A program made the position numbers and the translations under genes. Below, piece after piece: positions 3,489-36,407 of a DNA stretch of 64,000 nucleotides; positions within the stretch are counted from its first letter, which is position 1, and each line of letters opens with the position of its first letter. Location of the stretch: NCBI RefSeq assembly GCF_003473485.1, contig NC_053042.1, forward strand, positions 56,197,762 to 56,261,761. The letters are read 5' to 3'. The notes under the pieces are model-generated. The model worked only from the letters and a program-made list of their open reading frames with translations, did no database searches and was not told the origin of the DNA. The DNA is from Medicago truncatula. Its lineage: Eukaryota; Streptophyta; Magnoliopsida; Fabales; Fabaceae.

Positions 3489-6400
3489 TTAAGAGAGACC
3501 AATGACTTGTCCAGTTGTTGTGTCCAGATCAATGTCATAGAAGCACGGTCTTGTTGGCAACCCAGGCATGGTACTCATTGTTCCAACCAAAGGATAAATA
3601 AATCCAGCTCCTATACTAGCTCTTACATCCCTTATTGGTAAGATAAACCCAGTTGGAGCTCCCTTAGCTGCAGCATTGTCTGAGAAAGAATACTGAGTCT
3701 TGGCCATACAGATTGGAAGTCCTGAAAATCCTTGCTTGGTATATAACTCAATCTTCTTCTCGGCCTGGTCAGAAAATCAGGTGCTCAAAAATATATTTGT
3801 TATTAATTAAAGTGGCACCAATGCTTATTTTACACCTGTCCTCGAGGGGATTTGTACTCCGCCAATCGAGGTTACAAGATTAAATTTTTACCCAAGTTGA
3901 CACCTCATAGCCTGGTGGTAAGAAATGCATCTATTTATAAAGGATCAAAGATCAGGTAAAAAGTAAAAACAGATAGACTAAAACTTTGTGATGCTCATAT
4001 TCTTTTTGATGTGTGGTTTGTTAAGGAATGTCTCTTTGCCCCAATAAACTAGTTATGGGATAGAATTATGTTCATGGCTTATCTTTAGTGTTTTGCTCAT
4101 GACCACTTCAAGTGAATTCTCTGATGTTCATATTAAGTTGGTTAACAATGGTTAGTGAAACTCAATGGGTGATTAATTAGTTAGCTATCCAATTTTGATG
4201 TACCTGTCAACCAAACTTAATGTCTTTACCATAATTTTAGGTGAGAAAAATACGTTCATATCATTCCCCTGGTTTGTAAATTATCCTGTTAAAAGATAAA
4301 AACAATTAAGAAAAACTTAATCAATCATTTTTTATTTCAGGGGATTTCAGTAGCTTCATCACATCGAAATATCTTTGTCAACAAAGTCAAGATTTGAAAT
4401 ACCAACAATTTCATAATATGTTTATATCATTACCAGGTTTTACTTTCTCCCTTTCCTCTATGTTAAAACAATTTTATATCCCCTCTATGTTAAAATACAT
4501 AGGGTGGTAATATTTTGCAGGAGTTAAAGTAAACTGATATTAACTAAGATACCTGCTCTGAGTACTCAACACCGCTGGCTCCATATGACTTTGCTATTGC
4601 CTCTATTTTCTCCTTTATACCAATATCCAAAGGATATAGAAACTTCAATGGCTGTGTCGCATTCTCACAAGCTTTTTGAACTGCAATGCCTAGGTCTACC
4701 TGCAGACAAGGCATACTTCAGCAAGTGATAAATACCATTCCTCACAGAAAGATACTACTACTTGCATTTATTCTATTAATCAATGCATGTATTTAAAATT
4801 AATTTTGCTACTAGTTGTAACCCTGAAATGGTTCCATTTGCTTAAAATCTAACGTTTAAACCACAGGATGGATAAATTTGTGTTACCATCAGCACTATTA
4901 GGGTCTATGATCCAAAACAAATTAAAAACTAAGGGTAATGATGCAGGCTTCTCAATAACTTCAAATGACCGAGGATTAAAATTGGAGAAAGTTTCTATAA
5001 AAAAAAATGAAAAAAGCTCAACTAAATTTTATATCCGAATATGTTAGATCACAACTTAACTGATACTGATAGTGATTTGTTCATTATTAAATTTTTCTTT
5101 TTTTAATCCTTTGGCCTTATTGATTGTCAAAATTCAATATCCTATACTTGTGTCAGGGTAAAAGATAACTATGGCTTCTCAGTTATTAGCTCAAAAATGT
5201 GAAGACTTGTGAAGCATGAACTTACTGCTCCTCTGCCACCATGGGCATGATGGCTACATATAACAGCATCATAAGCCCCAGCATCTAAGGCAGCTTTTTT
5301 AACCGCATTTAGCTCGGCATCAGTGTCAGTTGAAAACTTGTTGATAGCAACTATAACATTCGCACCATAAGCTTTGGAATTTAATATATGTCTTGCCAAA
5401 TTCGCACAACCAGCTTCAACCAAAGCAACATTTTCGGTCAAATATGCATGATCAAGAGGTTTTCCAGCAACAACTGCTGGCCCTCCACCATGCATTTTCA
5501 GTGCCCTTATTGTTGCAACAATAATTGCACATTGAGGTGTCAAACCACTATACCGACACTTAATGTTCATAAACTTTTCAGTTCCAATATCAGCACCAAA
5601 ACCAGCTTCAGTAACTACAAATCCACCCGGTCCAACCAACTTGAGTGCAATCTTATCAGCCACAATAGAAGAATTCCCATGAGCAATGTTTGCAAATGGA
5701 CCTGCATGGACAAGAACAGGAGTTCCTTCCAAAGTCTGCATAAGAGTAGGGTGAATGGCATCCTTCATTAAAACCGTCAAAGCACCTCCAATACCTAGAT
5801 CATCAGCAGTTACAGGGTCACCACTCTTGCTGTTTCCAATTACCATTTTCCCTAGCCTCTCCCGCATATCAGTTAAGGATGTTGTCAATGCCAAAACAGC
5901 CATTATCTCACTAGCAACTGAAATATCAAATGCTGTTTCTCGTACCATTCCTTTCTCATCAGGTCCCTGGCCAACAGTAATTTTCCTTAAGAACCGGTCA
6001 TTGATGTCCATTACTCTCCTCCATGTAATAGAATCAGGGTCAATATCAAGCCTAGCAAATTTATTTACTTCTTCTGGTGTAAGATCATCTGGATTGGTCT
6101 TTGAAATGCCAAACTTCTTGAGACGCCTAAACATGACATCACTAAAGCTCCTTTTTCCTTCCTTATTTGGAGGGCATAACCGGTTGAAAAGAGCTTTATC
6201 TGATTGTGTTGACTCATGGAAAATTCTGGTATCAATTGCAGCGGCTAGAAGATTGTTTGCTGCAGTTATTGCATGTATATCTCCTGTTAGGTGAAGATTG
6301 AATTCATCCATGGGAATCACTTGGCTATAACCACCACCAGCTGCACCTCCTTTGATTCCAAAAGTAGGTCCTTGTGATGGTTGACGAATGCAGGTGACCA

Positions 6401-7588
6401 CCTAACAAAAGAGATAAGATGGGGTTATGCATAATCCAACACAACTTTTTTTTGAACAATTGGTATTTAGATTAGAAGAGGCATGCACAACGTAAGGCCG
6501 GAAAACCACCAACTTTGGCAAGGATTTACAATAAAGTTTACATATACAGCATAACTTTAACCATGATTAAAATGGTAGTTTTTCATTAATACATTGGACC
6601 CGCACAATCAGTGAAGAGATAAGTAATGAAAGAACAGTTCCTACATCCAGTCATTTCATCTGATGATGTAAGGGAAAAACAACATGGGAAAATACTTCCA
6701 TAAGAGAGTGAAAACATTTGTTTTCTTTTGGATAAAGTACAGGGTACCAAACATGATACGTAGTTAATTGCGATTAAGATTGTCATTGAGTAGATGTGGC
6801 AAATATCATATTTTACAGGCATACATATTTCAAAACACACACACACACACACACCGTGTACCAACCACGTGCACTATAGACCCTATTGTTATGTTATACA
6901 TAAAATTTGAGATGAGAAATTTGAAAATAGGCGCAGTGAGGTCCGTATGAGTTAAAAAGGTGGGAAAATGTGATAAAATGAGAAGAAGGAGGGAAACCTT
7001 TTTATCAAGAAAAGCACCTAATGCTTGACAGAGACCAACAGTAGTAGTAGATTTGCCTTCACCAAGAGGAGTTGGAGTAATGCCTCCAACCACAACATAA
7101 TACCCATCTTTTGATTCTTGCAGTTCATCAAGAGCGGATAACAGAACCTACACATAATAATAATTATACACAACATAAAAAATAAAAATAAAAAAACAGA
7201 TATATGAATCAGCATAAGAAGATGATGATGATGATACCTTGGCCTTATATTTGCCATAAAGGTCGTAATGATTGGGAGTAAGATTTAAATGATTAGCAAT
7301 CTCAGAGATGTGAATAGGTTGAACGGAGTTAGCAATATCTATGTCTGATGGAACAGGAGACACAACATCTAGCTTTCTCATCACTGAAGAAGAAGAAGAA
7401 GAAGTCATCATTGATTTTGGATAAAGTTTTGAGGATGAGAATGAAGAGTGGATATGTATTTGTGATTGTGATTGTGATTGAGCGAAACTGTGGGTGTTTG
7501 ACGAAGAATGTCCAACACGAGGAGGGGTGTAATGGTAAATTGACCACACGTTCAGTGGATTTGATTGGAGGAGCATTTCAGCATTCAT
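3489..7588 (-). CDS. THFS: Formate-tetrahydrofolate ligase (10-formyl-THF synthetase)
   Basis: Catalyses ATP + formate + THF to 10-formyl-THF in plant one-carbon metabolism. Five exons: 7588-7238, 7147-6998, 6401-5226, 4699-4553 and 3764-3489, giving 699 codons plus stop in one frame, with canonical GT-AG joins. Visible marks are the P-loop [11 protein letters not shown] (about residues 141-151), the family signature [18 protein letters not shown] at the start of exon 3, and [11 protein letters not shown]. The C-terminus is [19 protein letters not shown]. The usual plant protein of about 640 aa would start at M60 or M61 (7411/7408, [15 protein letters not shown]). The in-frame upstream ATG at 7588 adds 59 residues rich in Ser, Gln and His with a single acidic residue, which could be an organelle-targeting leader. 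The plus-strand frames inside exon 3 are shadows. An (AC)n run at 6834-6854 lies in intron 2. Confidence 0.95.
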
Positions 7589-29849: not shown

Positions 29850-30209
29850 CTAGTTACAAACCCGTGCGAAATTCGATAAAAAAAATCTTTGAAAGAATAG
29901 ATGTTAAAACGACGGAACATTGTGATTCATCATAAAATACGTATGAGCTGATTAAGAGAGCATATAATCAGTTTATGAGATTATGAATTGACATAATATT
30001 TAGGATGAAAATAATTGGAACCAATAAAGGAACCAATGATATGTGAATTTACATATTATTCAAAATTATAAAAAAGAGTGTTGTTGTAATACCCATATTT
30101 ACATCAAATGAAATCAAGCAAAGAAGTAACATCAGTGAGTGAAGATAATCTTGTCTAGGATTAGAGTTAAGGTGATCTGTTGAAAGTGCGGATTGTGAAC
30201 ACCAAATCT

Positions 30210-30458
30210 TTATTTGAAAACGACTTGAACGTGCATATTTTTAGGTGGCTTCTCTAGATCAAAAATTAACTTATCACCTGCCTCTAACATATCTTCTCAG
30301 CAAAATTTGAAACATTGGCTGCCTAAGTATTTTTTGTAACTTGCTCTCTTTGCCGTTATCAAGCGACACTTATACCTTTTTTGAGCTTGTTTGTCGATGA
30401 GTGTAATTGTTTTCCGTGTTCCTTTTAGAAATGTCATTGATATCTCATTTGAGAAGTG
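30210..30458 (-). pseudogene. B3-domain terminal exon, copy A
   Basis: A 249-nt block starting just after a splice-acceptor-like tag|CAC. It reads HFSNEISMTFLKGTRKTITL, then a W/F-containing B3 core (YLGSQCFKFC) and the typical B3 ending EAGDKLIFDLEKPPKN. It terminates at VVFK-stop. One in-frame stop interrupts it at the loop after FKFC. B3 domains bind DNA in plant transcription factors (REM-like are closest by eye). The block matches copy B in length, boundaries and stop position. Confidence 0.7.
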
Positions 30459-30794
30459 CTAGGTACAAAACAAATTGCAGTGTTAATTAGAAGTTATATA
30501 TATGTACATTTCTAAAACATTTACCAAAGCATTAGGAAAACAACATTACAATTAACATGATACTAATTAGAACCAATGAAGGAACCAACAATGTGCAAAT
30601 TAACGTTACATAATAGTTAGGTTTATAAAAGAGAGTGCAAGTTTCATAAACTAACCAAAAATGGATTTTTGCCAATACTTACATCAGACAAAATGAAAAT
30701 AACAAATGACATCCCAAAGTCAAGATAGTTTACGACTACAGTCCAAAGCGATACGTCAAAATAGTAGAAGTTATAATAGTTCAACAACAAAGAT

Positions 30795-31043
30795 CTACTT
30801 TGGAACAACTCGAATTTGCAAGTTCTTCTGTGACTTTTCGAGATCAAAGATGAGTTTGCCACCTTCTTCCATCACTCGTTATCTGCAGAAATTGAACCAC
30901 TGCCCACCCAAGTAATTTTCATAGCTTGCTCCATCGGTGGTAATGAGATGACAGTTACACTGTCTCTGTGTCTGGTCATCAATGAGAGTGATTGTTTTGC
31001 GCTTTCCTTTCAGAATTGTTCTTGACACCTCGTTTGGGAAATG
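30795..31043 (-). pseudogene. B3-domain terminal exon, copy B
   Basis: A 249-nt block after tttag|CAT. It reads HFPNEVSRTILKGKRKTITL, then YLGGQWFNFC and EEGGKLIFDLEKSQKNLQIR, ending VVPK-stop. One in-frame stop lies three codons into the loop after FNFC, a different change from the one in copy A, so the two decayed independently. It is better conserved than copy A (the W of the B3 core is kept). The start-to-start spacing from copy A is 585 bp, and downstream flanks are also related (GGAACCAAT...GGAACCAA blocks near 30020 and 30570). Confidence 0.75.
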
Positions 31044-31779
31044 CTAAATAGGAAAATAACTGCAGTATTAGTCTAATGCATATTTACATGGATAAGATGT
31101 ATGCGAATATAGTTACATATAATTTATAAAATAAAGGTAGCATAATTGATTTTAAGCTAAAGAAAATGTAACATGACTTCTAATTTATCATCCTATTATC
31201 TTCCTATAAAGTCTAGATAAATGCATGCATGTACATTATATGTACCCCGTTGACCAACTAACATTGTTGAAACAAATGGAAATTAAGCATCACTTCCGCA
31301 TGTGCATATATAGCTAGCACCATTTAACATTGATGTCTTCGAACATTTGGTGCAACTCTCATACTACAATCCAAAGTGGTTAGGATTGAATTTAGTTGTT
31401 TTCTAAATAGTGATGCAATATGTTTAATAACACAAATTATGCACATGAAATAAAGAATAATGCAATATGTATTTTTAATCTGTGCGTAAAAAAACTCAAA
31501 TTATGTTTGTTCATAAAAAAAGCAGACGTTGACTAAGTTTATAAATTCAGCAATTGGCCTAACCTAAGACAGTTTGAAAAAGTCGTTGTACGAAGTACGT
31601 TGAGAAGAAGTTGAACTCTGACTTAAGTTCTAACTGAAGTTTTGACTCTGAGCTTGAGAAGTGTTAAAGTCACGACAACAATTCAAGAAATATGGTCAAA
31701 AAACAATCAAATCAGATTGTGAAATAATAAGTTACTCTAACACTGTATTTTGAAATCATAATGCAAACTTACTAAGTCT

Positions 31780-31940
31780 TAAATTTCTCAACAACCAGAT
31801 GATGTAGGTTGATGAGCAACCTCGAACCTGACCAATTGTTACATATATTTGGGTTTCCATTAACTACAAAATGGAAGCAAGGAACTCAAGGTAAATGATA
31901 AAGCTACGGAGTATTTTTCCCATAGTGTTACATCAATTAT
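31780..31940 (-). pseudogene. OB-fold/RPA70-like fragment
   Basis: Two short minus-strand blocks, IDVTLWEKYSVAL (about 31905-31937) and NNWSGSRLLINLHHLVVEKF (about 31783-31845), are separated by an intron-like stretch ending ttttgtag. They resemble the C-terminal part of an RPA70-type OB fold (xTLWxxY... and ...xxTRLxINPxIPExxxF). Plant Helitrons often carry RPA-like genes. The match is short and by eye only. A Ser/Gln-rich stretch (SQAQSQNFS) lies between this and the B3 copies, near 31600. Confidence 0.4.
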
Positions 31941-32157
31941 ATTCCCACTACATATGGAAAGACATTTTTCAGGTCATTATCAAACTTATACAAAATTCTA
32001 TCATCTGATGTTGACAAAATAGAAAATAACACCTTTCCTATTTAGCAATGTTTAGTTTTTTTGAATAAGAAAAAGATATGCATAGTTTGTTACAATATAA
32101 AGGTACAATATATATATATAAAAGATAAGTATAATTTTTTTAGGCATCTATACTTTT

Positions 32158-32160
<3 letters not shown>

Positions 32161-32214
<54 letters not shown>
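32161..32214. repeat. (GT)16(AT)11 microsatellite
   Basis: An uninterrupted GT run, then an AT run. The phrase ATAATTTTTTTAGGCATCTATAC occurs on both sides (about 32130 and 32228), so the microsatellite sits between two copies of a short duplicated segment. Confidence 0.95.
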
Positions 32215-32216
<2 letters not shown>

Positions 32217-32304
32217 GATAAGCATAATTTTTTTAGGCATCTATACCTTTTTTGAAGAAAAGACATCTACAATTTTACTTTTAATTAAAATCAAAATTTT
32301 ATAA

Positions 32305-34100
32305 AAATTATACGCATTAGCGTAACAAAAAAACAGACACACATAAAATATTACTCTAAACGCTAATATGTGTGTCTGTATATTTGTGAGGTTGAAGAAA
32401 GAAAATAAAAATATTACGTATCATTAAATGATAGCGTAAATGAAAATATTTGTGAGGTTGTTATGATTAAACGATATTTAAATTAAATATATAAGTGATA
32501 AAAAGATAATAAAATTTCTTTGAAAAAAAGGTAATAAAATTAAATGGAACGGCTAAAAAATTTTAAATGGAAGAAAAAAACATATTGAAATATAATATTT
32601 GAAAATAAAAGAAAAGGTTCCCAACGTGAATTGAAGAGAGATGCTTGTGAAATAAATTGTCGAGAAGTAGTTTTTTGAAGTAGCATCAACAACTTTTGAC
32701 CAAAGCTCATTCCATTCAATTTTATCCATTAAAAAAGTACCTTTTTTAGTAAGTACTTAATTGATATTGTACTTGGCCTAATTTCTTCTTAAAAATGTAG
32801 AGAAGTTGAAAAAAAAACCGGGTCAAACGATATCTTAATCTCCCACAACGGCAGTGTAGAAGCAACTGAATTTGGGAGAAAAAAAAAATTAGAAAATAGT
32901 TAAAAATAAAAAATTGGAAAATAGTTAAAAGTTTTTAAAAATATAAAAATTGGAAAATAGTTAATAAAAATCGGTGAGGTAGCACTCAACCAAGCAATAC
33001 TAAAAAAAATTATATGCATTAGCGTAACAAAAAACAGACAGACGAACATAAAATTATTACTTTAAACGTTAATGTGTGTGTGTGTGTATATTCGCGAGGT
33101 TGAAGAAAGGAAATAAAAATATTTGGTATCATTAAATGACTGCGTGAATAAAAATATTTGTGAGATTGTGATGATTAAACAATATTGAAATTAAATATAT
33201 AAGTGATAAAAAGATAATAAAAATCTTTTGAAAAAAAGATAATAAAATTAAATGGAACTGTTCAAAAAAATAAAATAAAATAAAGTTAAATGAAAATAAA
33301 ACATATTGAAATATAATATTAAAAAATAAAAGAAAAGGTTCCCAGCGTGAGTTGAAAAGAGGTGTTTGTGAAATATATTGTCCAGAAGTAGTTTTTTAAA
33401 GTAGCATTCAACAACTTTTGGTCAAAGCTCATTCCATTCAATTCTATGCATTAAAAAATATTCCCTTTCTAATAAGTACTTAATTGATATTGTGTTTGAC
33501 CTAACTTCTCTTTAAAAATGTAGAGAAGTAAAAAAAAAAACCGGGTCAAACGGTATCTTAATATCCCACAATGGCAGTGTAGAAGCAACTGAATTTGGGA
33601 GAAAAAATTGGAAAATAGTTAAAAATAAAAAAATTGGAAAATAGTTAAAAGTTTTTAAAAATATAAAAATTGCAAAAATAGTTAAAAAAAATCGGTGAGG
33701 TAGCACTCAACCAAGCAACACTAAAAAAAATTATATGCATCAGCGTAACAAAAACACTGACAGACGGACATAAAATATTACTCTAAACGTTAATGTGTGT
33801 GTAAATATTTGCGAGGTTGAAAAAAGGAAATAAAAGTATTTGGTATCATTAAATAACAATGCAAATAAACATATTTGTGAGGTTGTGATGATTAAACAAT
33901 ATTGAAATTAAAATAATTGATAGTGTGTTTGACCTAACTTCTCCTTAAAAATGTAGAGAAGTTGAAAAAAAGCGGGGTCAAGCGGTACCTTACTCTCCCA
34001 CAACGGCAATTTAGAAGCAACTGAATTTGGGTGAAAAAATTGAAAAATAGTTAAAAAAATAAAAATTATAAAATAATTAAAAAAATGGTGAAGGGCAAAA
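32305..34100. repeat. Three tandem repeats of about 0.7 kb inside the Helitron
   Basis: Units start at about 32305, 33008 and 33728, each with TTATA(T/C)GCAT(T/C)AGCGTAACA. The first two continue through GAGGTTGAAGAAAG, GAAAAGGTTCCCA, TTTGACC(T)AA and CGGGTCAAACG(A/G)TATCTTA to TGGAAAATAGTTAAAA. The third lacks its middle part. Divergence between units looks like a few to about ten per cent. No coding potential. Confidence 0.85.
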
Positions 34101-34233
34101 TGGGAAATTCACCCTAAAAATGATGAGGTGGCGCTAACCACACCCATCAATAGGAAATTACTAAAATACCCCTCATAAGAGCAAAATGGTAAAATCCTAG
34201 GGACTTTTCTTTATAATATAGTAAGTAGACGGA

Positions 34234-35533: not shown

Positions 35534-36407
35534 GGGTTAATTAAGTTTTTGGTCCCTATAAATATCTACAGTTTTGTTTTCAGTCCCTGTAAAAATAAAT
35601 CAAACTTTTTAGTCCCTACAAAATTTTCTGTTAGTGTTTTGAGTCCCTGTTAAATTAAAATTTGTTTAATTATGCTTAAAATTTTAAATTTTTTAATGAT
35701 TTTTTAGATACTTGTTTAAAACATTATAAAAGGTTCGGCCACAATAAATTAGCTCAAAATTTTATTTTTAATGTCCAAATTTTCGTTAGTTTTATCTTGA
35801 ATTTTTTGCGTTTTAAAAAAATTATATTTAATTCATTACATGTTAAAAAATTCTAATTTTTTATAAAAGAGATTATTATAATGTTCTTAACATGTATGTT
35901 AAAAATCATTTAAAAATATAAAATTTTAAGTATAATTAAACAAATTTCAATTTAACAGGGACCAACACATACTTTTAGTCCTTGTAAAATTAAAATTTGC
36001 TTAACTGTGCTTAAACTTTTAAATTTGTAACATATATTTTTCACATACTTACTTAGAATATTATACAAAGTTCCTCCGCAAAAAAGTAACTTAAAATTTT
36101 ATTATTTGGTCCAAATTTTCATTAATATAATCTTGAAAATTTGGCTTTTAGAAAAATTCATATTTAATTCATTACATGTTATAAAACTAAAAAAAATTAC
36201 AAAAGAGTGTCTTACGATGTTATGAACATGTATGTAAAAAATCTTTCAAAAATTTAGAAGTTTAAGCATAATTAAACAAATTTTAATTTAACAGGGACTA
36301 AAAACACTAACAGAAAATTTTGTAGGAACTAAAAATTGTAATTTATTTTTATAGAGACTAAAAACAAAACAACAGATATTTATAGGGACCAAAACTTAAT
36401 TAATCCC
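35534..36407. mobile_element. GGGTTAA/TTTTTGGTCCC inverted-repeat element, double-length copy
   Basis: The ends GGGTTAATTAAGTTTTTGGTC and (reverse complement of the right end) GGGATTAATTAAGTTTTGGTC are inverted. The interior holds the subfamily A core twice: AAATTAAAATTTG(T/C)TTAA(T/C)TxTGCTTAAA at about 35654 and again at about 35988, each followed by a GTTC(C/G)xCC...AATT block. At 874 bp it is nearly twice the other copies, so it looks like a tandem or nested dimer. Confidence 0.75.

Follow-up and report, generated by a model that had tools for sequence, protein, structure and literature searches.

A tandem pair of B3 gene ends in a high-copy, non-autonomous Helitron of Medicago truncatula

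The DNA examined here, called the window, is a stretch of 64,000 nucleotides from Medicago truncatula (NCBI RefSeq assembly GCF_003473485.1, contig NC_053042.1, positions 56,197,762 to 56,261,761 of the forward strand). Its minus strand includes a Helitron transposon that carries two terminal exons of the B3 domain type, designated A and B (Table 1). Each exon is 249 nucleotides long including the stop codon, and the two begin 585 base pairs apart, have a common reading frame and end at a common codon. An AG precedes each of them on the minus strand (CCTAG and TTTAG, respectively), and each is interrupted by a single in-frame stop codon, which is TGA at codon 54 of A and TAA at codon 55 of B. 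Apart from the bases of the acceptors and of the internal stops, these features had been recorded in a preliminary description made from the letters of the sequence, and all were confirmed. The homology between the two copies is wider than the exons, extending over approximately 30534-31070 for the B unit and 29961-30491 for the A unit. Each repeat unit starts in the last part of an intron, continues through the exon and includes some 250-280 base pairs of former 3' untranslated region (UTR).

Table 1. Features of the B3-bearing Helitron and its surroundings in the window
Feature	Position	Strand	Remarks
Non-autonomous Helitron	29850..34229	-	5' end 34229 (TCTACTTACTATATTATAAAG); 3' end 29850 (...GTAACTAG, followed by T); ends aligned with 20 other copies
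Helitron 3' terminus	29850..29871	-	terminal hairpin; left arm missing in window copy
Former 3' UTR, unit A	29961..30209	-	homologous to UTR of unit B and of family 2
B3 terminal exon A	30210..30458	-	82 codons and stop; internal TGA at codon 54
Former 3' UTR, unit B	30534..30794	-	homologous to UTR of unit A
B3 terminal exon B	30795..31043	-	82 codons and stop; internal TAA at codon 55
Former intron before exon B	31044..31177	-	134 nt, TTTAG at its end; predicted phase 0 and donor site
Decayed RPA-like exon, zinc-ribbon region	31178..31446	-	best match 31286-31402; in frame of exon B, but with stops
Decayed RPA-like exon fragment	31535..31616	-	73% to C6 RPA gene
Decayed RPA-like exon fragment	31767..31865	-	73% to C6 RPA gene
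Three diverged direct repeats (D1-D3), ~720 bp each	32369..34039	-	5' half of Helitron

The two exons are B3-like. The Pfam profile PF02362 matches the translation of A with E=6e-5 (23.3 bits, profile positions 32-97 of 101) and that of B with E=1.1e-3 (19.3 bits, positions 19-98). The best-scoring relative, a stop-free relative of B, reaches E=4.3e-6 (27.0 bits), and all three matches, although significant, score under the gathering score of 30.1 bits. The domain is incomplete in the window exons, since the match begins at profile position 19 in B and 32 in A and the first strand is absent. A sequence search of PDB found no B3 chain, and an AlphaFold model was poor, with a predicted local distance difference test (pLDDT) score of 46.7, and was not used further.

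There are many representatives of this pair in the genome, which was searched as 430 Mb in 42 contigs. When the pair was used as a DNA query, 40 of 381 candidates were scored and all 40 gave E=0, which is far beyond chance. The paired B3 gene-end fragments are real. The whole pair (at least 832 of 834 bases) is spanned by 37 of these 40 matches, the window included, and this number is a lower bound. A protein search with exon A gave at least 150 matches (150 of 683 candidates were scored, and all matched). The B3-carrying Helitron family that the preliminary description had only envisaged does exist. It has relatives with open frames and is a high-copy, non-autonomous family. A set of 21 copies, hereafter the subfamily copies, was formed by the window and 20 of the 39 other DNA matches, which were picked from the match list rather than at random, fetched with their flanks and aligned to the window element.

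The ends of the Helitron are evident from this alignment. The 5' end could be read in 17 copies. Of these, 14 begin with TC preceded by A, and one each has TC preceded by G (the window), TC preceded by T, and CC preceded by A. The 3' end is CTAG followed by T in 18 of the 21 copies, the window among them, and TTAG followed by T in one; it was not found in the other two (L016 and L027). The terminal hairpin, whose arms read ACCCGTG...CACGGGT in other copies, keeps seven of seven pairs in nine of the 19 copies with a 3' end and at least six of seven in 13, and the left arm is gone from the window copy. Thus, the family has the hallmarks of plant Helitrons, namely a 5'-TC, a 3'-CTRR, insertion between A and T, and a 3' hairpin. 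The preliminary description had already recognized a Helitron at 29850-34233; the identification and the left limit stand, and the right limit moves to 34229. Read in gene orientation, the element consists of the 5' end, three repeats, an RPA remnant, unit B, unit A and the 3' end. No Helitron_like_N match lies inside the window among the at least 126 matches listed, and there is no long open frame in the three coding-strand frames. The window copy is not autonomous.

A relative of the autonomous type lies on C6, where an element of about 14 kb (C6:28455539 to ~28469796) has a 3' end identical in type to that of the B3 family and matches 17 of its first 20 bases at the 5' end, with three mismatches. 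Sequence downstream was read for this and two further Helitron_like_N loci, and the other two end in different hairpins. The C6 element carries the Rep/helicase that the window copy lacks. It is predicted to encode a PIF1 helicase (6.2e-94) and an RPA-like protein (DUF223, 1e-9; Rep_fac-A_C, 3.2e-6 and 27.4 bits, just under the cut-off of 28.5), with Helitron_like_N between the two. With A and B as tblastn queries, no B3 sequence was found in the fetched stretches of this element (best E 0.56), and B3 as a part of it was rejected.

Blocks of the C6 RPA gene match both L029, a B3-bearing relative (six blocks, 70-76% identity), and the window element (three blocks, 71-73% identity), and for this reason the segment 31178-31865, directly upstream of the B3 pair, is a decayed RPA gene. 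A comparison of 242 codons between L029 and the C6 gene gives differences at 58/39/107 first/second/third codon positions, and there are five stops in L029. Neither the RPA remnant nor a second family with a B3 end at another type of terminus (family 2, described below) had been noticed in the preliminary description. As a separate observation, the RPA zinc-ribbon exon has a set of matches (C8:23789792, C2:11956996 and others) that all score alike (70 bits, 87%) and have open frames 84-105 amino acids long. One locus within this set, L040, has a B3 exon that is cut off after about 33 codons and followed by a different Helitron terminus.

The two internal stop codons have very different distributions. 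The TAA of exon B is present, at the nucleotide level, in all 21 subfamily copies, and the same codon is GAA in L029, L032 and L034, three relatives that retain unit B but do not belong to the subfamily. The B stop would therefore predate the spread of the family, and it most likely arose in the source copy, ahead of amplification. The TGA of exon A is found in only two of the 21 copies (the window and L009; L025 is deleted there), and nine of the 21 have an A frame that is free of internal stops. Exon A most likely broke recently, in one sublineage.

The differences between the exons are also unevenly distributed. By codon position, there are 18/10/44 differences between majority A and majority B, and 11/7/39 between their reconstructed ancestors (p=1e-7). 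Ancestor A differs from family 2 by 8/5/21 (p=0.0017) and ancestor B by 10/5/35 (p=2e-7), and each has a third-position bias on its own deep lineage (A, 4/3/12; B, 6/3/26; family 2, 3/1/8). Ancestor A was derived from only majority A, L034A and L033, the start of the latter itself being partly B-like. Ancestor B was derived from majority B, L034B, L032B and L029B, and the family 2 ancestor from L031 and L041. The p-values are from chi-square tests for equal codon positions and ignore relatedness. The differences fall mainly at third codon positions, which indicates purifying selection during the divergence of A and B, at a time when they were not yet passengers.

Within the subfamily, the counts are 25/18/21 for A over 15 copies (p=0.56) and 30/28/39 for B over 19 copies (p=0.35), with no significant bias in either case; six A copies and two B copies are left out because of indels or truncation. 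In the same copies there are six new stops in A, with 4.9 expected, and five in B, with 7.7 expected, where the expectation places the observed changes at random, i.e. without selection. Exon copies differ by 1.7-2.1% from the majority sequence. Outside the subfamily the picture is mixed, and the comparison of A with L034A gives 6/7/3. The changes and stops look neutral, and selection on the exons is not visible since the family spread.

These patterns bear on two ways of viewing the pair. The preliminary description had proposed that a B3 gene end, either captured or part of the element, was duplicated in tandem and then decayed in parallel. Put as a model, one captured exon was duplicated inside the element and both copies then decayed without selection. 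The UTRs were indeed duplicated along with the exons, and hence the units have one common ancestor. However, the third-position excess between A and B, the presence of one stop in every subfamily copy and of the other in two, and the open frames of relatives that do not belong to the subfamily are not what such a history would leave, which makes this model very improbable. Its central element, parallel decay after duplication, is ruled out by the stop distribution and the codon-position pattern. Alternatively, the B3 exons might be useful today, either as host genes or as a helper of the element, as could be imagined from the stop-free A frames in the subfamily and from the many stop-free sequences among the 150 protein matches. 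This we consider hardly credible, given that exon B is broken in every subfamily copy read and that both codon positions and stop numbers within the subfamily are those of neutral sequence; present-day selection was sought in both and not seen, and no function of the exons today was found.

There are also B3 units beyond the family that carries the pair (family 1). Family 2 is represented by L031 on C4 and L041 on C7, which are 88% identical over a common 1.3 kb that contains one B3 unit and a hairpin-CTAG end. Its terminal stretch resembles that of L040 in type and is unlike that of family 1. L040 matches L041 on either side of the B3 segment, which is absent there from L040; this may reflect a gain in L041 or a loss in L040. 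In families 1 and 2 the homology of the former UTR stops at an identical point (..ATATATG), and the two families also have in common the intron and the end of the exon preceding the B3 exon (the pre-B3 exon). The pre-B3 exon of family 2 has six protein matches in the genome, and a third such locus (L042) stays in frame through the junction. In L030 and L033 there is only one exon, with a B-like start and an A-like end, as judged by eye, which is the pattern that a deletion between the units would give. Upstream of its B3 unit, L031 (C4:64707646-64712646) carries at 97-2437 matches to an NAD(P)/FAD-binding enzyme (7.7e-6), AP2 (2e-9) and a response-regulator receiver (2.5e-8), the last on the opposite strand, and is probably a multi-capture Helitron. 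Separately, three stop-free B3 exons lie about 19.9 kb apart on the plus strand of C2 (17085451, 17105359 and 17125223), which suggests a tandem array of a 19.9-kb unit.

The reading that we favour, with a probability of roughly 0.7, is that the ends of host B3 genes were captured into a non-autonomous Helitron and are now drifting passengers. The family is related to an RPA- and Rep/helicase-bearing Helitron like that on C6, of which it has kept a decayed part of the RPA gene. Downstream of this remnant, the 3' ends of two related B3 genes or exons in tandem replace the rest of the RPA gene and the Rep/helicase, and these ends (intron end, last exon and 3' UTR) lie just inside the Helitron 3' terminus. 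The B3 ends would have been captured from host B3 genes either as a tandem pair or by successive captures, after which the B stop would have arisen in a source copy that was then amplified. Copies may be mobilized in trans, through rolling-circle replication, by the Rep/helicase of elements that have a matching 3' end, and the B3 fragments would contribute nothing to transposition. On this reading, exons A and B are already diverged, once-functional exons that were separate working exons first and have been carried along since, and the window element is a dead copy of the family. Capture of a last exon is natural because many host B3 matches start at profile position 16-17, near the start at 19 seen here, and the AP2, receiver and NAD(P)/FAD fragments of L031 are as expected of a capturing Helitron. 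Capture of host B3 3' ends is the simplest account.

Several points weigh against capture. No donor B3 gene was found. The 5' end of L031 was not found, and its AP2, receiver and NAD(P)/FAD fragments are not proven to lie inside one element with the B3 unit. Some comparisons outside the subfamily lean towards third positions (B versus L034B, 5/5/10; L032B versus L029B, 3/5/9), and the time at which selection ended is therefore only approximate. In addition, readable B3 units are at Helitron 3' ends wherever the end is visible and none was shown outside a Helitron, which the capture of host genes does not need. Finally, the RPA frame and the pre-B3 exon are in one frame in the copies read, and this leaves room for a resident RPA-B3 gene.

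Perhaps, then, the ancestral Helitron itself bore a B3 gene, possibly fused to RPA (RPA ... DKLE, then B3, with a phase-0 intron between them), which was duplicated inside the element, maintained by selection and later lost by non-autonomous copies. The zinc-ribbon frame continues in frame to 'DKLE' at the end of the pre-B3 exon in seven of nine loci scanned by motif (the window, L010, L029, L030, L032, L034 and L040; the motif was not found in L015 and L033), and in the window 'DKLE' is followed by the intron-like stretch and then by exon B. Frame agreement is nevertheless expected by chance in one case in three, and stops occur after 'SD(A/V/T)' and shortly before 'DKLE' in all seven loci read. 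When the upstream exon is joined, the B3 match of L041 extends to profile position 5 (21.2 bits), but the score of L031 gains nothing (18.7 to 18.6 bits). The third-position bias on each deep lineage, the position of the units at Helitron 3' ends, and the pre-B3 exon end, intron and UTR end point common to both families would all fit a resident gene, whereas the C6 element yielded no B3 sequence. On balance, we regard a resident gene as unlikely. It is likewise doubtful, by a slightly greater degree, that some legume Helitrons once had their own B3 DNA-binding gene, perhaps fused to RPA and under selection, that was broken up afterwards and whose remnants spread in at least two families. If a resident gene did exist, a DNA-binding protein would be added to the plant Helitron gene set.

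If capture is correct, the process is of an ordinary kind with an unusually clear history. Within one transposon family, the history of a carried coding sequence can be ordered in time around the point where its function was lost, because the deep differences bear the mark of selection and the shallow ones bear none, and because one of the two stops precedes the amplification and the other follows it. Open B3 frames in Helitrons, if unnoticed, could also inflate B3 gene counts in this genome.

Elsewhere in the window, and outside the Helitron, there is a two-copy tandem repeat of 336 base pairs at 35638-36298. An open frame of 410 amino acids at 5169-6401 on the minus strand has a translation that presumably resembles formate-tetrahydrofolate ligase.

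Host B3 genes of the same genome, which we take to be of the REM type, resemble the Helitron exons in their B3 domain and in the profile position (16-17) from which many of their matches run. They differ in their higher B3 scores (up to 95.6 bits) and in that many lie in chromosomal clusters. No B3-bearing Helitron was found in a literature search limited to open-licence papers. The nearest published analogue found is DHH_Mothra, a high-copy non-autonomous Helitron of rice (PMC4683698). The two families are alike in their high copy number, their blocks of direct repeats, their kinship to an RPA-bearing element, and the presence in the family consensus of a captured gene fragment that is partly repeated. 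Unlike in rice, the fragment here is B3, and a relative was found that combines a matching 3' end with RPA and Rep/helicase. In maize, Helitrons are described as acquiring genes by stepwise capture, with several captured fragments per element and a PP2C-like fragment amplified in 229 helAs (PMC3288121). They are similar to the present family in their TC and CTRR ends, hairpin, insertion between A and T, captured fragments and amplification of a fragment. The genes captured in maize are different, and the part of that paper that was available describes no selection history for two tandem captured exons.
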